From Pirellulales bacterium (GTDB taxonomy: Bacteria; Planctomycetota; Planctomycetia; Pirellulales; UBA1268): a stretch of 64,000 nt of DNA. Within the stretch, counting starts at the first letter, position 1. Each line of letters starts with the position of its first letter. Location of the stretch: the NCBI GenBank assembly GCA_018401745.1, contig JAGYJY010000022.1, positions 1-64,000 on the forward strand, in the 5' to 3' direction. The notes under the pieces were generated by a model. The model ran no database searches, was not told the origin of the DNA, and worked only from the letters and a program-made list of their open reading frames with translations. Below are positions 24 to 58,256 of the stretch, in pieces. A program made the translations under genes and the position numbers.

Positions 24-216
24 GGCCGCAGACCGCCGCGAAAGCGGCGGACAGGCCGTCCTTAAAACCCGTAAGCGAGGGGTGAGCCCGGGGCTGACCC
101 TCCGGCGTATAGGAGCGAGCGACGCCCGGAGGGCCAAAGCGAAGCGGATATCCGAGCGAGCGAGGGCCTGGAGGGCCCGCAGTGAGCGTCCGGAGGGGCA
201 GCCCCGGGCTCACCCC
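24..216. repeat. Mosaic intergenic repeat, copy R1 (modules A + B1)
   Basis: Module A (24-61) is a GC-rich hairpin with an arm, a short loop and the complementary arm. The B1 core follows at 79-216 and is exactly 138 bp. Its ends are inverted arms of about 28 bp that match at all but one position. Near-identical B1 cores occur at 36812-36949 and 57283-57420. The right end lies 9 bases from the stop codon of the minus-strand M16 gene. Short open frames inside it are judged to be by-products of composition. The left edge of the window may cut a longer element. Confidence 0.85.
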
Positions 217-8864: not shown

Positions 8865-8937
8865 GCTAGCGTAGCTCAATTGGCAGAGCAGCTGATTTGT
8901 AATCAGCAGGTTGCGGGTTCAACTCCCGCCGCTAGCT
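8865..8937 (+). tRNA. tRNA-Thr (anticodon TGT)
   Basis: A 73-nt cloverleaf. The acceptor GCTAGCG pairs with CGCTAGC, the anticodon loop TTGTAAT gives TGT, and the T-arm contains GGTTCAACTC. CCA is not encoded. It is the first of four tRNAs leading into tuf. Confidence 0.96.
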
Positions 8938-9220
8938 CACTCGGGAACGGGCATTCAGCAGAAGAATGGCTGACATGCACCACCCGACTTGTGGGATGGC
9001 GTTTCCGCGGCAGACCTGTTTTGGTGGATGGCGTACGGCTGACAGGCCGCCGCCTTGCCCCCAAGGCGGGGTTTCGAGCCCACCTGACAGGCGGTCCAGC
9101 ACGCCAGCCACGCCCCGACTGGCTGGCGGAAGCGGGATGCACCTGGAGGATTCGACGGTCCCTAAGTCCCTAACGAAGTCTCTGAGAAGAGAACGAGTGT
9201 CTCAAAAAGACGTGAACACA
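8938..9220. other. tRNA spacer with two perfect stem-loops
   Basis: A gene-free spacer of 283 bp. It contains an 8-bp perfect stem at 9050-9057/9062-9069 (loop of 4) and an 8-bp stem at 9102-9109/9121-9128 with an 11-base loop. These are likely processing or stabilising structures in the polycistronic tRNA precursor. No open frame here looks real. Confidence 0.4.
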
Positions 9221-9302
9221 GGGGAGTTTCCCGAGCGGTCAAAGGGGTCAGACTGTAAATCTGATGGCATTGCCTTCGCAGGTTCGAATCCTGCACTCCC
9301 CA
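9221..9302 (+). tRNA. tRNA-Tyr (anticodon GTA)
   Basis: An 82-nt class II tRNA with a long variable arm. The acceptor GGGGAGT pairs with ACTCCCC, the anticodon loop is CTGTAAA, and the T-loop is TTCGAATC. The CCA end is not encoded. Confidence 0.96.
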
Positions 9303-9535
9303 CTCACCCACGACCCACACGCACGAGTCAACTGTCGATCGCCGACGTTTTCAGCCGAGCATGACGCCCATTTGGGAGCCATGATTGGAGCCAGCCGGAC
9401 GACGCGAACAAACACCCCGAAAGAGCACTCCGAAAGAGCAGCCCGAACAGGCAACGCAAGCAACCAAAACAAAGCAGACAGAGCAGAGCAGAAAACGCAA
9501 AGAAACAGGCGAGGAGCCTGACGAAAACCCTGCCT

Positions 9536-9606
9536 GCGGGTGTAGCTCAATGGTAGAGCAATAGCCTTCCAAGCTAAAGACGAGGGTTCGATTCCCTTCA
9601 CCCGCT
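9536..9606 (+). tRNA. tRNA-Gly (anticodon TCC)
   Basis: A 71-nt cloverleaf. The acceptor GCGGGTG pairs with CACCCGC, and the anticodon loop CTTCCAA gives TCC. It is separated by 233 bp of gene-free spacer from tRNA-Tyr. Confidence 0.96.
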
Positions 9607-9673
9607 GTCACGACCACCACGGGAACGCACGCACGCCACACCGACCACAGAATCACGAATCCGACGCAAGTTT

Positions 9674-9746
<73 letters not shown>

Positions 9747-9978
9747 CTCGTCAGGCCCGAGCATCCTTCGAGCAACGCTCAACTGGAAAAGCTCGGGGCC
9801 GAGAAAAAAAGCCGGGGACGCTCCGGCCCAGGAACGGTACAACATGGATCCGGAAGGAGCGTCTTCCGGTGAACGATCGACGAATCTGATTTTCTGACTT
9901 CAACCGCAGGCAAAAAACCTGCACATCGACACCGCGGGTTCGCCCCGCACAACAACGAAGAGACCCGAGGGAGAAAGC
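9747..9978 (+). promoter_or_regulatory. tuf leader region with stem-loop
   Basis: 232 bp between tRNA-Thr and tuf. A perfect 7-bp stem (9850-9856/9863-9869, loop of 6) lies in the middle. A good ribosome-binding site (GAGGGAGAAAGC) directly precedes ATG 9979. The region may carry a separate tuf promoter, but none was convincingly identified. Confidence 0.35.
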
Positions 9979-11181
<1,203 letters not shown>

Positions 11182-11213
11182 TCCGCTACTCACAGGCGAA
11201 TAGACGGCAACAG

Positions 11214-11246
11214 GCTGCCGGTGGCTCTGCACGAGCCACCGGCAGC
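11214..11246 (+). terminator. Perfect 14-bp stem-loop after tuf
   Basis: Arms 11214-11227 and 11233-11246 are fully complementary around a 5-base loop. There is no T-run after it, and tRNA-Trp starts 8 bases later. It may act as a terminator without a U-tract, or as an RNA-processing or mRNA-stabilising structure between tuf and the tRNA. Confidence 0.55.
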
Positions 11247-11253
11247 TGACCGA

Positions 11254-11326
11254 AGGGGCGTAGCTCAACTGGCAGAGCGCTGGTCTCCAAAACCAGAGGT
11301 TGCGAGTTCGATTCCCGCCGCCCCTG
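11254..11326 (+). tRNA. tRNA-Trp (anticodon CCA)
   Basis: A 73-nt cloverleaf. The acceptor AGGGGCG pairs with CGCCCCT, and the anticodon loop CTCCAAA gives CCA. Its place between tuf and secE is the conserved bacterial arrangement. Confidence 0.96.
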
Positions 11327-24178: not shown

Positions 24179-25243
24179 CTACCCGATATCGAGCACCGCC
24201 CGCAGCTTGGCCGGATCCTCAATCCCGAGGATCTTGGCCAAGGCTTCGCGGTCTTCGGCCGTCAGCGGCACAAAGATCACCGGATCTTGCACCATCTCCG
24301 GGTCGATCAGCTGGTAGCCGCTGATCATGCCCGAACGGAAGACCGGGCGGCGACCGTAGCCATACATCGCGTTGTCGACCCGCCCGAGAAAATCGCCCAG
24401 CGTGATGACCTTCGGCCGCGGCGTGCGGATGTAGAGCAGCTCGATCACTTCAGCCCAGAAGTGCGGCACAAACTTCGCACCCACATTGGCGTGGCCAACC
24501 CGGCAGCGGCTGGTGCCGGCGATCATCGCCGGGGCCGAGACCAGCGGCTTGGCCGCGGTGGCCCGTTTCTCAAGTTCGCCCGTCAAGGCGAGGCAGAAGT
24601 CGGCGCTGTAGCAGTCGTCGAAGATCAGCGTCAGATGCGAGAGGTCGTGGCTTGCAGCGTCTGCTGGCATCAGGGCGTCTGCGAGCCGTGCGACCGGAAT
24701 GCCGTAGCTCTGGATCTCAAGCGGCAGGCCGTGGCCAAGGACGATCATCGTGGCAGGCGACTCCGCCAGCGCGCGCTGGCGCACCGCTGACAGAAAGTCG
24801 TCGCCCACGGCTTCGAGGGTCTGTGAGCCCTCCTGCTTGGCGACGGCGGCTACGGTTCCGTAGGCCTCGGCCAGTGTGGTGATCTGCTTTGGATCGAGGC
24901 CCCGGGCAGGGTCGAGGAGCGCCACCACGTCGACACCTGGCCCCAGCACAATCCTGCCCTTCGCGCGGTCGCGAAGGCCGACCACAAACTGGGCAAGATC
25001 TCCAACGGGGGCATCGGCTTGGTCGTGCAGCAGCCAGAAGACGCTCGGGGCGATCTGCCGCCAGAGTTTCTGATCCGACGAGAGCGGAGGCGGAAGCGCT
25101 GCACGGGCCTGCTCGGCAAACTGCTCGATCGTCTCCACGGGAACCGACTCAGCAGCGCCTGGCGGATCGGCAGCCTGCCCGTGCAGGCTCGACGCGAGCA
25201 GAAAGGCGACGAGCATTGGCCACACGTTTCGTCTCACAGGCAT
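24179..25243 (-). CDS. Secreted caspase-like (clan CD) protein, putative
   Basis: A 354-residue exported protein. The start at 25243 is preferred: AAAGGAGAG lies upstream and it yields a clean signal peptide (MPVRRNVWPMLVAFLLASSLHGQA). Two segments match the His-Cys dyad layout of caspase/gingipain-like peptidases: VLGHGLP (His about 171) and, after a strand, LIFDDCYSADF (Cys about 211). The rest, including the tail ending LRAVLDIG, is not recognised. Activity is inferred from motif spacing only. Its first 95 bp overlap the 3' end of polX on the same strand, and it converges on rpoC. Confidence 0.6.
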   Translation of the reverse strand: MPVRRNVWPMLVAFLLASSLHGQAADPPGAAESVPVETIEQFAEQARAALPPPLSSDQKLWRQIAPSVFWLLHDQADAPVGDLAQFVVGLRDRAKGRIVLGPGVDVVALLDPARGLDPKQITTLAEAYGTVAAVAKQEGSQTLEAVGDDFLSAVRQRALAESPATMIVLGHGLPLEIQSYGIPVARLADALMPADAASHDLSHLTLIFDDCYSADFCLALTGELEKRATAAKPLVSAPAMIAGTSRCRVGHANVGAKFVPHFWAEVIELLYIRTPRPKVITLGDFLGRVDNAMYGYGRRPVFRSGMISGYQLIDPEMVQDPVIFVPLTAEDREALAKILGIEDPAKLRAVLDIG

Positions 25244-27122
25244 CGGGATCGCTCTCCTTTGTGAAGGGCTGAAGGCTGAAGGACGTGTCACAAGACAGGG
25301 ATCCGGCAGGAGGCCTCAACGCCGCTGCAGCGTGCATGAGTTTCCGCAGACCTGCCAGGGTGTGGGTGTTGGCCACATCGGCAGCCTCGAGGCCTGCCCG
25401 GCGAGCCTGCATCACGCCGCACCGCATCAGGTCGAGGCCCCGCGTGGAGTGGGCGTCGGTGGAGATCACGATCTTCACCCCGGCCCTGCGGGCTGCCGCC
25501 GCGTGGACATCGTCGAGATCGAGCCGCATCGGGTTGGCGTTGATCTCGAGGAACGTGCCGGTGCGGGCCGCGGCCTCGATCACGGCCTCCATGTCGACGT
25601 CGTAGGGAGGCCGCCGATTGATCAGGCGACCGGTGGGATGGCCGATCACCTGCACGTGCGGGTTTTCAATCGCCTCGATGATCCTGGCGGTGATCTTCTC
25701 ACGCGGCTGGCTCTGGCCGTAGTGCAGGCTGGCCACCACCCAGTCGCCCTGTTCCAGCACCTCGTCTGGCAGGTCGAGGCCTCCCTTTTCCAGCATGTCG
25801 ACCTCGATGCCCTTGAGCACGGTGAGCCGAGGCGAGCGGCGGCCCTCGCTGCGAGCCTGCTCGCGGAGCGACTCGTTGAAGCGGTCGATCTCTTCCCACT
25901 GCTTGAGCAGGCGGGTGCGATTGAGGCCGTTGGCCATGCTGACTCGCTGGCCATGATCGGTGATCGCGATGTAGTCGAGCCCTCGGGCGATCGCCGCAGC
26001 CACCATGCCGGAGAGCGTGTCTTCGCCGTCAGTGGCATCGGTGTGCATGTGCAGATCGCCGCGGATGTCGTCGACCGTGATCAGCGTCGGCAGCCGGCCT
26101 TCCTCTGCCCAGGCGATCTCCTCGCGGCCCTCCCGCAGCTCCGGCGGAATCCAGGGCAGGCCTACGGCCGCGTAGACCTCCTCTTCAGTGCCACCGTGCT
26201 CAGGGGTTCGGTCGCGTGCTGCGGCTGCTTTCTCGCCTTCTGCGATCGGAAACACGCCGTATTCATTGACCGACAGGCCGCGGTCTCGCGCCCGCCCCCG
26301 GATCAGCACGTTGTGTTCTTTGGAGCCGGTGAAATACTGCAGCGCCGCCCCAAACGAGGCCGCTCGCACCACCCGCAGATCGACCTGCACATCACCGGTG
26401 ATCCGCACGCTCATCTTCGTGTCGCCACGCAGCATCACGCTCTGCACATCCGCAAACGAGGCGAAGTGGTCCATCACGGCGGCCACGTTGTCGCTGTCGA
26501 CCACGATGTCGAGGTCGCCGACGGTCTGCCTTCCCCGCCGCCAGCTGCCGGCACCCTCAACCCGCGTGACAGCCGAACAGCCGCGCAGATGGTCGAGCAG
26601 CCGCTGCACGAGCAGGTCGGCGTCGTACCAGAGGAGCCGCTGATTTTCCGGGTTTTTGGCGAAGCCAACGTTCTCCAGGATGGCAGCTTCCGTCTTGGCA
26701 CCGAAGCCCTTCAGCCCCCGCACCCGGCCCTCCTGGCAGGCGGCCTCCAACGCGTCGAGCGAATCGATGCCGAGCTGCTCCACCAGCATCCGAGCCTTCT
26801 TGGGCCCCAGCCCAGGAACCCGCATCACATCAAACGCTGAAGCCGGCACCGCCTTGCGAAGATCCTCGAGCATCTTCAGCGGCGCTCCGTCGAGCAGCGT
26901 CTCGATCTTGGTCGCCAGATCGCTGCCAATCCCATCAAAGTCGGTCAGCTTCCGCGCCGCATCCGCCCGCACCCCTGCCAGCGACTCCACCAGGCCCTCC
27001 ACCGTCCGGGCGGCATTGCGGTAGGCCCGAATACGAAAGGCATTTTCCCCTTTAAACTCGAGAAGATCCGCGATCTCCTCAAACACAGCAGCAATCTCAG
27101 CATTCGTCACAGGCGAACTCAC
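25149..27122 (-). CDS. polX: DNA polymerase/3'-5' exonuclease PolX
   Basis: A 657-residue family X polymerase with a PHP domain. Order: helix-hairpin-helix 8-kDa domain (NAFRIRAYRNAARTVE; VPGLGPKKA), palm with catalytic Asps (GDLDIVVDS, VQVDLRVV) to about residue 320, then the PHP phosphoesterase (DLHMHTDATDG, ITDHGQR, GIEVDML, ASLHYG, IGHPTGR, STDAHS). It functions in gap-filling repair. The last 50 or so residues after LRPPAG are atypical and lie where the gene overlaps the start of the caspase-like gene, so the true C-terminus may be shorter or altered by an indel. Confidence 0.95.
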   Translation of the reverse strand: MSSPVTNAEIAAVFEEIADLLEFKGENAFRIRAYRNAARTVEGLVESLAGVRADAARKLTDFDGIGSDLATKIETLLDGAPLKMLEDLRKAVPASAFDVMRVPGLGPKKARMLVEQLGIDSLDALEAACQEGRVRGLKGFGAKTEAAILENVGFAKNPENQRLLWYDADLLVQRLLDHLRGCSAVTRVEGAGSWRRGRQTVGDLDIVVDSDNVAAVMDHFASFADVQSVMLRGDTKMSVRITGDVQVDLRVVRAASFGAALQYFTGSKEHNVLIRGRARDRGLSVNEYGVFPIAEGEKAAAARDRTPEHGGTEEEVYAAVGLPWIPPELREGREEIAWAEEGRLPTLITVDDIRGDLHMHTDATDGEDTLSGMVAAAIARGLDYIAITDHGQRVSMANGLNRTRLLKQWEEIDRFNESLREQARSEGRRSPRLTVLKGIEVDMLEKGGLDLPDEVLEQGDWVVASLHYGQSQPREKITARIIEAIENPHVQVIGHPTGRLINRRPPYDVDMEAVIEAAARTGTFLEINANPMRLDLDDVHAAAARRAGVKIVISTDAHSTRGLDLMRCGVMQARRAGLEAADVANTHTLAGLRKLMHAAAALRPPAGSLSCDTSFSLQPFTKESDPDACETKRVANARRLSARVEPARAGCRSARRC

Positions 27123-27254
27123 AACCCAGGCAACACAAAAGCCCGCCCATCATATCAGTCAGCATCTCCCACCGAACGCCCGGCTGGAGAGGAGACCGCC
27201 CGCGGATGGTCCGGCTCGTCAGGCGGCCAAAGTCGCGTCGCTGGGCCAGGGAAC

Positions 27255-27702
27255 GGGACGGGTCCTCGGGCCGCAAAGCGGAAACGGCACAGCCGAGGTG
27301 CCTCCGGCACCCGAAGACCCGTCCCGCTTGCACGCCCGCACCGCACGCATCCCGGCCGCGAGCGGACCGGACGTCCCGCTGCACGCCCGCTTGCACGCCG
27401 CGCTTGCACGCCCGCTTGCACGCCCGCTTGCACGCCGCGCGCCCCACCGCACGCATCCCGCCCCTCCGCCGCCCCCCGGCCGCAGATCGCCGCAAAGCGG
27501 CGAACAGGCCGTCCCTAAAACCGCAAGCGAGGGGTGAGCCCGGGCCGAATGAGCCGGCCTTGCAGTCGAGCGCAGCCCGGAGGGCGAAAGCGAGAATGCA
27601 CGAGTGAGCGAAGCCAGGATGGCGAAGCGAACGCTCGGCGAATCGGCTTGGGCTCACCCCGAGCGACCCCGAACGCTCGGCGAATCGGCCCGGGCTCACC
27701 CC
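27255..27702. repeat. Mosaic intergenic repeat, copy R2 (C + tandem array + A + B2 + extra end)
   Basis: Module C (27255-27325) is an inverted repeat with perfect outer arms GGGACGGGTC/GACCCGTCCC. About 60 bp of 12-13 bp tandem units (core GCTTGCACGCCC) follows at 27375-27437, then module A (27478-27515). The B2 core follows (27531-27660, exactly 130 bp), then a 42-bp duplicate of its right end (to 27702). It fills almost the whole 589-bp gap between polX and the Pro-rich gene. The stop codon of the Pro-rich gene starts 9 bases from the end. Small frames across it (for example Ala-Cys-Lys-Arg repeats) are judged non-genic. Confidence 0.88.
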
Positions 27703-27711
27703 GAGCGACCC

Positions 27712-34283: not shown

Positions 34284-34413
34284 GGGGTGAGCCCGGGCCG
34301 AATGAGCCGGCCTTGCAGTCGAGCGCAGCCCGGAGGGCGAAAGCGAGAATGCACGAGTGAGCGAAGCCAGGATGGCGAAGCGAACGCTCGGCGAATCGGC
34401 TTGGGCTCACCCC
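34284..34413. repeat. Mosaic intergenic repeat, copy R3 (B2 core only)
   Basis: An isolated B2 core of exactly 130 bp with no A or C module, the minimal form of the family. It differs little from the cores at 27531-27660 and 45985-46114. It starts 22 bases after the alpha-CTD stop and ends 44 bases from the stop of the convergent GDP-fucose synthase gene. Confidence 0.88.
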
Positions 34414-36539: not shown

Positions 36540-36670
36540 TCAGGCATTCCTTGCCACACCACCCGCAGCCGCTCACTTTACCCCGCCCCCCATCCCGCGG
36601 GAAACACGAATCTTCGCTAAGAAGCGAACGCCCAAGGCGACTGTCGCCGCTGCAGGGCGGCGGATGAAAC

Positions 36671-36949
36671 GGGACGGGTCCTCGGGCCGCGAAGCGGCCT
36701 CGGCGGAGCCGAGGTGCCTGCGGCACCCGAAGACCCGTCCCGCTTGCGCATCCCCGGCCGCAGATCGCCGCGAAGCGGCGAACAGGCCGTCCTCTTTTAA
36801 ACCCTCAGCGAGGGGTGAGCCCGGGGCTGACCCTCCGGCGTACAGGAGCAAGCGACGCCCGGAGGGCCAAAGCGCAGCGCATGTCCGAGCGAGCGAGGGC
36901 CTGGATGGCCCGCAGCGAGCGTCCGGGGGGGCAGCCCCGGGCTCACCCC
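36671..36949. repeat. Mosaic intergenic repeat, copy R4 (C + A + B1)
   Basis: The cleanest complete example. Module C (36671-36741) has fully paired outer arms around CTCGG/CCGAG inner arms. Module A (36756-36792) and the B1 core (36812-36949, 138 bp) follow. It lies between gmd and the EpsI-like gene and ends 22 bases from the latter's stop. About 170 bp between the gmd start and module C holds no recognisable feature. Confidence 0.9.
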
Positions 36950-45717: not shown

Positions 45718-46156
45718 GACGCGCAGCGTCGGACAGGCCTTCTCGCTTTACGCCTGCGAAGCCATCCTGGCCTTCGCAGGCTAAGGCGACCAGGACAGAA
45801 GGTCCACGGGCCGCGACGCGGCCTCGGCGAAGCCGCAGCTGCCTGCGGCACCGAAGACTCGTCCACGCCTGCGAAGCCATCCACGGCCTTCGCAGGCTCA
45901 GGCGACCAGTCAGAGCCCAGGTTTCCGACCGGCCGCAGACCGCCGCTCCTGCGGCGGACAGGCCGTCCCTAAAACCGTAAGCGAGGGGTGAGCCCGGGCC
46001 GAATGAGCCGGCCTTGCAGTCGAGCGCAGCCCGGAGGGCGAAAGCGAGAATGCACGAGTGAGCGAAGCCAGGATGGCGAAGCGAACGCTCGGCGAATCGG
46101 CTTGGGCTCACCCCGAGCGACCCCGAACGCTCGGCGAATCGGCTTGGGCTCACCCC
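45718..46156. repeat. Mosaic intergenic repeat, copy R5 (variant with module D, A, B2, extra end)
   Basis: Two copies of a 10-bp-stem hairpin (module D, 45751-45792 and 45866-45909) bracket a diverged C-like inverted repeat (45802-45866). Module A (45931-45969), the B2 core (45985-46114, 130 bp) and a 42-bp extra right end (to 46156) follow. It fills the gap between convergent ygfZ and the small membrane protein, ending 9 bases from the latter's stop. Open frames within are not considered genes. Confidence 0.88.
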
Positions 46157-54357: not shown

Positions 54358-54842
54358 GTGACGATTGTTGCAAGTCCCAGGCTGCAGCAGGACGTTTTCT
54401 CATGGGAGGAGCTCTCCGAACTTGAGGCCGCAGAGCCGCTGTTCGATTGCGTCGAGTCCTCGATGCTGCTGAAGGGTTCGGCCCTCGTTGAAGCCCCTGT
54501 CGCCATGGAAGAAGACGAGGAAGAAGAGGGCTACGAGGACGAGGACGAGGAAGACGGCGACGAAGAGGAAGAGTACGAAGACGAGGAGTACGAGGACGAG
54601 GAAGACGACGAGGAAGACGACGACGACGAAGAGGGGGATGAGGACGAGGAAGAGGGCGACGACCTCGACGAGGATGAGTGGGAAGAGGTTGAGGACGAGG
54701 ACGAAGAAGACGACGACGAAGAGGAAGACGACGAAGAAGACGACGAAGAGGAAGAGAAGACGAAGACGAAGAGTTCGACGAGGACGAAGACGAAGAGTGG
54801 GAAGATGACGATGAGGAGTGGGACGAGGAAGACGACGACTGA
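54358..54842 (+). CDS. Hyper-acidic Asp/Glu-rich protein (frameshifted)
   Basis: A GTG start preceded by GAGGAG. The first 50 residues are mixed (TIVASPRLQQDVFSWEELSELE). From about residue 51 nearly every residue is Glu or Asp, with occasional Tyr and Trp. Near 54757 the frame turns abruptly into Lys/Thr/Arg (KTKTKSS). Restoring one G there continues the acidic run (EDEDEEFDEDEDEEWEDDDEEW) to the TGA at 54840-54842. The length of 485 bp is two over a multiple of three, consistent with one lost base. Function is unknown; such tails can bind cations or basic proteins (inference). Confidence 0.7.
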
Positions 54843-54997
54843 TCGTCACCTCACGCGATTCTCGTCACACCTGCCGCCGCCTCCGGCGGCCCTGCAGGCC
54901 CGGGAAGCCACTTTTTTGGCTTTCACTGACCTTCCCAGGAAACCTGCCTCAGTGTGCTGGCGGCGGGGCCTCTGCCTCAAGCTGCTGCCGAATTGTT

Positions 54998-57001: not shown

Positions 57002-57420
57002 CGGGACGGGTCCTCGGGCCGCAAAGCGAATAAACACGCAAGCGGGACGGGTCCTCGGGCCGCGAAGCGGATAAACACGCAAGCGGGACGGGTCCTCGGG
57101 CCGCGAAGCGGCCTCGGCTCTGCCGAGGTGCCTGCGGCACCCGAAGACCCGTCCCGTTCAATCCGCCTGCGGCACCCGAAGACCCGTCCCGTTCGCCGCC
57201 ACCCCACTCGGCCCTCGTCCCCGAGCCCCGGCCGCAGATCGCCGCGAAGCGGCGAACAGGCCGTCCTTAAAACCGTAAGCGAGGGGTGAGCCCGGGGCTG
57301 ACCCTCCGGCGTATGGGAGCAAGCGACGCCCGGAGGGCCAAAGCGCAGCGGACATCCGAGCGAGCGAGGGCCTGGATGGCCCGCAGTGAGCGTCCGGAGG
57401 GGCAGCCCCGGGCTCACCCC
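57002..57420. repeat. Mosaic intergenic repeat, copy R6 (multiplied C arms + A + B1)
   Basis: The left arm of module C (CGGGACGGGTCCTCGGGCCGC...) occurs three times about 40 bp apart (57003, 57045, 57084), and the right arm (CACCCGAAGACCCGTCCCGTTC) twice (57138 and 57173). Module A (57230-57266) and a B1 core (57283-57420, 138 bp) follow. The gap between the phosphatase and the coiled-coil gene (592 bp) is mostly this element, with about 165 bp of unassigned sequence at its left. The stop of the coiled-coil gene starts 8 bases after it. Confidence 0.9.
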
Positions 57421-57428
57421 GAGCGACC

Positions 57429-58256
57429 CTACAGGCCCGCGACCGACGGCATCGGAGCCAGCGGGATCGGCTCGGGCGCAATCGGCAGGTGAATCCGGGT
57501 GGCCTCAGCCTCATCAGAATCGGCGTCGCTTTGCCCAGGCGATCCCTGCTCCCGGCCCTGGTCTGCCTCGGGGCTCTCTCGCCGCTGGGCCTCTGCCCGG
57601 GCAAGTTCGCGGTCAATCCGCTGCTCGAGCCGGCGGGTGGCTGCCTCAAGTTCCTCGTTGATCGTGCGGTCCACACGCTTCACGATCAGGGTTCGTGTGC
57701 GATCAAGAGCCCGCTCGATCCGCGTCTCGTGAGCAGCTGCCATGCGAGCGATGTCTTTGGATGCCTGGCGGTCTAGGCGGTCTGCAGCCTCGTCGGCCTG
57801 GCTGTCGATCCGTGCGCGAAGCTGCTTTTCGAGCCGGGCTGCTTGCTTGGCGGCTTCGTCGGCGAGCCGCTGCTCGGCCGCGGAAAGCTGCCCGTCGATC
57901 TTTTGCTGAAGCGCGGTTGCCTCTGCCGCAGAGGCTTCGCGGATCTCCGTGAGTTCCTCGGCGTGCTGCTGCTGAAGCTGGCTGGCAACCTCGCCGACAG
58001 CTTCGTCGAGCTTGGCTTCGAGCCGCGTGGCCTCGTCTTCAAACTGCAGCCCGAGCATGCCAGCGAGATCGTCTCGAACAGCTGCCATCCGCGTGGAGAG
58101 CTCGTGGCGGACACGATGGGCGACTGTGCTTTGCAGTTCGGCCTCACGCTGCTCGCGAAGGCGTGTGAAGAGGCCGGCGTCGGCCGGCGAGGCCACGAGC
58201 ACAAGACCCATGACGACCACCATTCCTGCTCCAGCCCGCTCAAGCCAGAATCCCAT
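57429..58256 (-). CDS. Secreted coiled-coil protein of unknown function
   Basis: A 275-residue exported protein. The start at 58256 has a strong GGGAGGAG site and gives the signal FWLERAGAGMVVVMGLVLVASPADA. Residues about 30-240 are an Ala/Glu/Arg/Gln-rich continuous helix with heptad repeats (VASQLQQQHAEELTEIREA, QAARLEKQLRARIDSQADEAADRLDRQ). A disordered Pro-rich tail follows (PIAPEPIPLAPMP). No enzymatic motif is seen; it may be a periplasmic structural rod. Confidence 0.72.
   Translation of the reverse strand: MGFWLERAGAGMVVVMGLVLVASPADAGLFTRLREQREAELQSTVAHRVRHELSTRMAAVRDDLAGMLGLQFEDEATRLEAKLDEAVGEVASQLQQQHAEELTEIREASAAEATALQQKIDGQLSAAEQRLADEAAKQAARLEKQLRARIDSQADEAADRLDRQASKDIARMAAAHETRIERALDRTRTLIVKRVDRTINEELEAATRRLEQRIDRELARAEAQRRESPEADQGREQGSPGQSDADSDEAEATRIHLPIAPEPIPLAPMPSVAGL

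Follow-up and report, generated by a model that had tools for sequence, protein, structure and literature searches.

What kind of element is repeated six times, always in one orientation, between the genes of the window? By the window we mean the whole stretch of DNA that was analysed, 64,000 nucleotides in length (C21:1-64000), which belongs to a 2.88-Mb planctomycete MAG of 28 contigs, about 74% complete. An earlier note described the copies as mosaics of hairpin modules (A, B1 or B2, C and D) in fixed order, with a core of invariant length always at the right. The six copies were confirmed where it had placed them, all on the + strand, and the fixed order with the core rightmost was borne out in all of them. 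So were the core lengths, which by exact motif are 138, 130, 130, 138, 130 and 138 bp in window order. We refer to B1 as the 138-bp core (138-core), to B2 as the 130-bp core (130-core) and to the + strand of the window as the written strand, on which cores start with GGGGTGAGCCC and end with GGGCTCACCCC. The following features were identified.

24..60, + strand: D module (GGCCGCAG..ACAGGCCGTC hairpin) of copy 1 (motif coordinates, sequence)
79..216, + strand: 138-bp core (B1) of copy 1 (exact motif; 71.8 bits with covariance model R1)
27209..27254, + strand: partial E module (GTCCGGCTCG..GGCGGC.AAAGTCGCGTCGCTGGGCCAGG) (sequence)
27254..27326, + strand: A module (branched hairpin) of copy 2 (motif coordinates)
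27478..27513, + strand: D module of copy 2 (motif coordinates)
27531..27660, + strand: 130-bp core (B2) of copy 2, three-way-junction fold (exact motif; 105 bits)
27661..27711, + strand: tandem partial copy of the core right end (42-bp unit GAACGCTCGGCGAATCGG..CTCACCCCGAGCGACCCC), copy 2
34284..34413, + strand: 130-bp core only, the minimal copy 3 without A, C or D (exact motif, covariance model)
36670..36742, + strand: A module of copy 4 (motif coordinates)
36756..36791, + strand: D module of copy 4 (motif coordinates)
36812..36949, + strand: 138-bp core of copy 4 (exact motif; 74.1 bits)
45718..45930, + strand: C-type hairpin modules and a variant A-like hairpin of copy 5 (sequence)
45931..45967, + strand: D module of copy 5, with loop CTCCTG instead of GAA (motif coordinates, sequence)
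45985..46114, + strand: 130-bp core of copy 5 (exact motif; 105 bits)
46115..46156, + strand: tandem partial copy of the core right end, copy 5 (sequence)
57002..57083, + strand: tandem pair of truncated left arms of the A module, copy 6 (family D8)
57084..57156, + strand: complete A module of copy 6, followed by a partial right arm at 57165-57196 (motif coordinates)
57230..57265, + strand: D module of copy 6 (motif coordinates)
57283..57420, + strand: 138-bp core of copy 6 (exact motif; 73.1 bits)

The E module is an additional 5' module, absent from the earlier list. In the sampled DNA of the own genome, modules left of cores constitute a repeat repertoire themselves (D 91, A 80, C 20 and E 28 occurrences). 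All 91 D and all 20 C modules are oriented as the core, and D, A, C and E nearly always lie 5' of it, while partial tandem copies of the core right end stand to its right. Examples of E modules (GGCTCGGCAGGCGGCAAAAGTCGCGTCGCTGGGCCAGGATAGGCC...CGAGCGTTCGCCGACCCGCCGAGCC) located 5' of cores in the own genome are L065:7700-7900 and L096:15500-15700, and E-like sequence precedes cores in other genera too (e.g. L115, L117, L125); three of six E copies found far from any core are in opposite orientation. The A module is a branched GC-rich hairpin. On the minus strand of the window (27248-27332) it gave a match to C4 antisense RNA of 24.9 bits, below the cut-off of 45, which is probably due to chance.

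Two copies end close to genes on the opposite strand: the 138-core of copy 1 ends just ahead of the stop codon of minus-strand gene 226-1734 (peptidase M16), and the stop codon of minus-strand gene 57429-58223 adjoins the 138-core of copy 6. Copy 2 is adjoined by a minus-strand PolX-type gene (25149-27110; DNA polymerase beta thumb and palm, PHP domain), with no sign of a link to the element. The window further contains five tRNA genes within 2.5 kb (8865-11326, +), on the same strand as the elements, and a low-complexity GAG/GAC codon run (54469-54857, +) encoding a very acidic Glu/Asp-rich protein tail, which is the source of the largest direct-repeat families in the window.

The check proposed for the repeat, tens to hundreds of copies with conserved lengths, was met in the parent genome, where about 70 copies were found. 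These include 40 near-full 130-cores of 97-100% identity and about two dozen 138-cores, a few more having been found later. For detailed analysis 67 cores (42 130-cores and 25 138-cores) were placed in 924 kb of stretches around copies; copy lists are genome-wide, and detailed reading is confined to these approximately 0.92 Mb rather than the whole genome. The 130-cores share 98.7% mean identity (n=42) and measure exactly 130 bp in 39 of 42 cases, 138-cores exactly 138 bp in 19 of 24. Copies are scattered in intergenic DNA with a spacing of roughly one element per 40 kb.

The wider search among planctomycetes also yielded relatives. BLAST with the 130-core matched 56 of 72 family genomes, representing 10 of 12 genera, typically with 75-80% identity between genera, and gave no match in the other 16 genomes. 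By covariance model, 62, 66 and 80 copies were counted in genomes G018, G037 and G057, respectively. Beside Planctomycetia MAGs, the element family occurs in MAGs titled "Candidatus Kuenenia stuttgartiensis" (L135, L137, L142, L153 and others), names that may be mislabels. A phylum-wide scan with R1 matched only the own genome; since this first look scored just 11 candidates per genome, absence elsewhere in the phylum is only weakly supported. Outside planctomycetes, the model recognised three copies: two in a Halanaerobiales MAG (G072), with 47 and 34 bits, and a single one in a further Bacillota genome (G405), with 51 bits. These copies keep the inner boxes, and their outer stems have no obvious sequence in common with planctomycete ones. 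A pattern scan centred on the Halanaerobiales copies matched only these two genomes, with one exact-pattern match in G405. For the Bacillota copies, present data do not separate common descent from horizontal transfer or from convergence.

The earlier note knew of no named family with this structure, and our searches agree. Rfam 15 detected only tRNAs in the window and nothing meaningful over the core at E up to 10. Viral contigs gave no match with the strict pattern, plasmids none to the element and phages none to the Halanaerobiales core, the only one searched there; phage or plasmid origin was rejected on these grounds. The feature is thus real, family-wide and undescribed in the libraries searched. 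Four points go beyond the earlier note: replication polarity, common origin of the cores, positions that are kept while sequence is replaced, and relatives outside planctomycetes.

The core structure comprises 45 pairs, forming outer stem P1 (17 bp), P2 and hairpins P3 and P4, a three-way junction closed by P1. In a first alignment of 35 cores, taken mostly from other genera of the family, 97.6% of cells are paired and 25 pairs are changed on both sides. Double changes number 162, whereas shuffled alignments give 40 and slid controls 11-26. In a second set, which consists of 72 copies found by the model in two other genera, the figures are 361 versus 87; this set was aligned to the model and leans towards it, nevertheless the slid controls collapse. 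The compensatory substitutions that had been proposed as a check are therefore present far above controls. Together with some 70 copies and family-wide relatives, they support the earlier judgement that the repeats are too regular for drift and too modular for a simple REP.

Both hairpins carry GGA loops, one of them often AUGGAU, and tandem G-A pairs are possible in their internal loops (GA/GA; GAA/GNA, with G and A positions invariant). Since the search pattern set the P4 boxes in the first set, their invariance there is partly by construction. The second set contains 100 G-T pairs and 13 A-C mismatches. A G-T pair corresponds to an A-C mismatch on the complementary strand, and this excess therefore indicates that the fold is selected on the written strand.

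A single covariance model, built mainly from other genera, scores the 130-core at about 105 bits and the 138-core at about 50-76 bits. Since the same model detects both, the two cores belong to one family: B1 and B2 are both present, as had been described, but they are not unrelated modules.

We then consider orientation. All 67 mapped copies, distributed on 16 contigs, follow one orientation per contig, which has a probability of about 2^-51 under independent random orientation. Contigs with + copies display negative GC skew and those with - copies positive skew, C21 being near zero. Third-codon GC skew, used to correct for gene direction, has lower values for genes on the element strand than for those on the opposite one in 15 of 16 contigs, the exception being C14. 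Elements of the own genome thus reside on the G-poor, putatively lagging strand. The ribosomal L2 gene on C4 runs against the direction of the elements on that contig, which fits a leading G-rich strand. This leading/lagging assignment is inferred from skew and one operon, with no origin mapped. Composition cannot explain the pattern, because the core, whose written strand is rich in G (+0.18 and +0.12) as well as in A, still sits on the G-poor strand; a composition artefact was accordingly rejected. Using tRNA strand as a replication proxy was uninformative (7 versus 10, six from one region).

All four possible arrangements of flanking genes are found (18/16/15/10 in the own genome). Since orientation is fixed all the same, the rule does not concern transcription, and a transcription-linked role such as terminator or 3' UTR was discarded. 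In the sister genome G018, 20 of 20 stretches follow the polarity rule, one small contig having an extra opposite copy. In two other genera the bias is weaker than in these two genomes (36 of 46 together): 21 of 27 in G037, with exceptions mostly in stretches of near-zero skew, and 15 of 19 single copies in G057. Polarity per se is not new, because bacterial transposable elements have already been described as biased in orientation with respect to replication (Gomez 2014, cited in PMC6006769). What is unusual is its strictness for a small structured intergenic repeat.

Comparison of the own genome with G018 reveals how the copies persist. Their flanks align at 71-86% identity (mean about 77%). 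Of 18 syntenic sites, ten are shared in both position and orientation, five are occupied only in the own genome and three only in G018. By our estimate chance would produce less than one shared site, given about 75 copies in some thousands of gaps. At the ten shared sites, ortholog cores are only 55-85% alike, and each core has a paralog of 85-100% identity in the genome it belongs to; the true ortholog ranks only 4th to 23rd of 27 by core similarity. Seven of the ten own copies there are 130-cores, and G018 has 138-like or more divergent cores at these places. Since cores at shared sites match paralogs better than orthologs, addresses and orientation persist while sequences are replaced. Repeated insertion into the same gaps, i.e. 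a hot-spot model, is not fully excluded.

As the five own-only sites demonstrate, whole composites can be missing. One clean pair (L199 versus L342 of G057) displays an insertion where a stop and a start codon overlap, flanked by ATGA on either side; apart from this case no consistent target-site duplication was seen in planctomycetes. The closest relative, G019, offered no clean empty sites: its contigs break at repeats and a flank query found nothing.

Copies in some genomes are arranged differently. G057 contains at least 11 head-to-head inverted pairs (11 were tabulated; loci L332, L333, L334, L336, L337, L343, L344, L345, L346 and L349) with 5' ends together and a spacer mostly of 37 nt; the reverse pair arrangement was not seen. 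Paired units have inner GCCT..AGGC arms and outer CCGG-type arms and are two-headed, REPIN-like. No inverted pair exists among the 67 copies of the own genome. The two Halanaerobiales copies lie in AT-rich DNA within 12-bp terminal inverted repeats (GATTATAAAGTT..AACTTTATAATC) with candidate 9-bp target duplications. These units of about 180 bp (L253:1501-1631, L257:1501-1626) look like a MITE carrying the same fold. The G405 copy (L352:1429-1551) is situated within the ribosomal str operon, in sense, with rpoC on one side and an L7Ae-like gene on the other, and a weaker similar stretch lies directly upstream of it (1305-1384).

The best explanation, to which we give about an even chance, is that of a non-autonomous mobile element, similar to a REPIN or MITE, which an unidentified enzyme copies at replication forks in a single polarity; mechanism, transcription and enzyme were not demonstrated. 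Such mobility would explain the number of copies, their residence between genes, their gain and loss, the inverted doublets and the terminal inverted repeats, and once it is granted, polarity needs insertion or copying at forks. Observations in its favour are some 70 near-identical intergenic copies, strict polarity (67 of 67 on 16 contigs, with agreement in G018 and bias in G037 and G057), covariation together with G-T/A-C asymmetry, eight sites gained or lost (five own-only, three G018-only) plus the clean insertion, replacement at the ten shared sites, and the REPIN-like pairs of G057 and the terminal repeats with candidate duplications of Halanaerobiales.

Against it, no mobilising enzyme was identified, and the persistence of ten of 18 sites across flanks of about 77% nucleotide identity is unusually stable for a mobile element. 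Consistent target-site duplications are missing in planctomycetes, wrong-way partners in the inverted pairs of G057 score no worse, and gene conversion alone could homogenise the copies without any mobility. Fold, its strand, polarity, intergenic residence independent of transcription, gain and loss between species and replacement at kept positions are observed; mobility by fork copying is inferred, the intermediate being folded ssDNA or RNA that is joined to a nascent strand or annealed beside it, and so is the route of overwriting.

In such a mechanism the core would fold as a three-way junction on one defined strand, and copies would be laid down at forks in a single polarity, the folded strand always becoming the lagging-sense strand (leading-strand template). 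A folded written-strand molecule might be joined to, or annealed as, nascent lagging DNA; alternatively, written-strand RNA might be copied from the leading 3' end. New subtypes would overwrite old copies at existing addresses, possibly through gene conversion or annealing. The enzyme would act in trans and would probably not be a Y1/RAYT transposase. A more far-reaching version can be put forward only tentatively, as it is rather more probably wrong than right: the strand-specific three-way-junction element would copy and overwrite itself at forks in one polarity via an uncharacterised non-Y1 enzyme, possibly RNA- or cDNA-based, would persist by repeated replacement at fixed addresses and would double as a genome-wide polarity mark, with relatives in at least two phyla.

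Mobility could be dispensed with if the copies were a selected signal of chromosome polarity, i.e. fixed addresses recognised by a nucleoid or fork protein or by a DNA translocase, similar to KOPS/AIMS but long and structured, and kept alike by gene conversion within the genome. Strict polarity in the own genome and G018, the spacing of about one per 40 kb, ten positions kept with orientation and purifying selection on the fold all speak for such a signal. We nevertheless consider it unlikely, although not negligible, since 16 of 72 family genomes lack a match, eight of 18 sites are not shared, G057 and G037 display inverted pairs and weaker polarity, and G072 and G405 have just two copies and one exact-pattern match, respectively.

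Alternatively, copies might be inserted both ways and wrong-way ones lost, if the strand with the stabler hairpin were tolerated only as leading-strand template and otherwise caused fork stalling or deletion. The written strand indeed folds more stably than its complement (-36.5 versus -30.8 and -55.2 versus -50.3 kcal/mol), and the complement is the strand on the lagging template. The energy difference is small, however, 67 of 67 is stricter than purging predicts, and G057 keeps at least 11 head-to-head pairs with a wrong-way copy, forming a palindrome of about 300 bp. We regard purging as improbable, slightly more so than the selected signal; both remain live rivals of the mobile element.

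It is doubtful that the copies act as RNA, as a structured RNA gene or mRNA element transcribed from the written strand. Typical of RNA are the G-T/A-C asymmetry, the internal loops with tandem G-A and the GGA loops, which resemble CsrA-type or TwoAYGGAY loops; in addition, the G405 element is placed in sense between two genes. On the other hand, orientation is independent of neighbouring genes and would set all copies head-on to replication, the 3' end has no T-tract terminator, Rfam gave no match at E up to 10, and about 70 near-identical copies are not what this role would suggest.

Finally, we examined Y1 transposases. The own genome has two Y1 genes (G000:C17:16380-18482; L232, L233), and Y1_Tnp is present in 26 of 72 family genomes. 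The resident genes lie amid a separate palindromic repeat (AAAAAGGTGTCAGGAACC..CCTTTTT), found elsewhere, among fetched loci, only at the Y1 locus of another genus (L236); they are a typical RAYT with its own REP. Y1 transposases have a known lagging-template preference (PMC6006769), and in the IS200/IS605 model the recognised strand lies on the lagging template (PMC6006769), opposite to the strand of the selected fold. That the elements are REPs or BIMEs of the resident Y1 (RAYT or IS200/IS605) transposase, polarised via lagging-template ssDNA transposition, is very improbable and was rejected in spite of the two genes, their template preference and the REPIN-like pairs of G057, for Y1 is absent from element-rich G017, G018, G043 and G044, its cognate repeat is a different one, the GTAG/CGTC tag is missing and the folded strand is the wrong one for the model.

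Interspersed repeats in bacteria are commonly regarded as debris of REPs or MITEs. The present family unites a covariation-supported fold with known selected strand, polarity without exception in the 67 mapped copies of the own genome, and fixed addresses with repeated replacement. This poses a testable question, namely whether polarity is set at insertion, by overwriting or by selection, and the answer would reveal either an enzyme for replication-coupled mobility or a signal of chromosome polarity, new in both cases.

How does the element compare with known systems? The TwoAYGGAY motif, listed for human gut, gamma-Proteobacteria and Clostridiales (Weinberg 2010, PMC2864571), contains two AYGGAY by name, reminiscent of the GGA loops in both hairpins, one of them often AUGGAU; Rfam gave no match at E up to 10, and this similarity is a lead only. 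The beta-proteobacterial repeat element BRE is likewise a GC-rich intergenic repeat (75-91 bp) with partial and tandem copies, but it is reported as not co-oriented with the replication fork (PMC3110155), whereas here orientation is locked; sequences were not compared. Orientation following replication direction, as in polarised signals, is met in the own genome and G018 and more weakly in G037 and G057. KOPS, AIMS and Chi-type motifs share this tie across the whole chromosome, but these are motifs of about 8 bp present in hundreds to thousands of copies, also in genes, while ours are structured elements of at least 130 bp found only between genes.

MITEs and bcr1, BOX, NEMIS and ERIC repeats (PMC2229807) are similarly non-autonomous, vary in presence between species and have terminal inverted repeats, a feature met here by the 17-bp covarying outer stem P1 and the 12-bp repeats in Halanaerobiales. 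Unlike MITEs, our elements have no parental transposase found (none is flanked by element ends in fetched loci, although no systematic search was made) and no uniform target-site duplication; their internal core is conserved by covariation and they are polarised. REP, BIME and REPIN elements (Di Nocera 2013, PMC3733652; Bertels and Rainey 2011, PMC3116915) are likewise intergenic, palindromic, non-coding and present in tens of copies and mosaic clusters, and REPINs form inverted doublets as seen in G057. Here, in contrast, the core is a branched structure of 130-138 nt with a three-way junction and G-A loops instead of a 20-40 bp hairpin, no 5' GTAG/GTGG or CGTC tag precedes it (AGCGA in own copies, varied in other genera), RAYT linkage is lacking, and replication polarity is strict with replacement at kept addresses. 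Since it failed the tests for tag, size and RAYT association, we do not count the element among the REP superfamilies and class it as a variant of the REP/REPIN/MITE kind.
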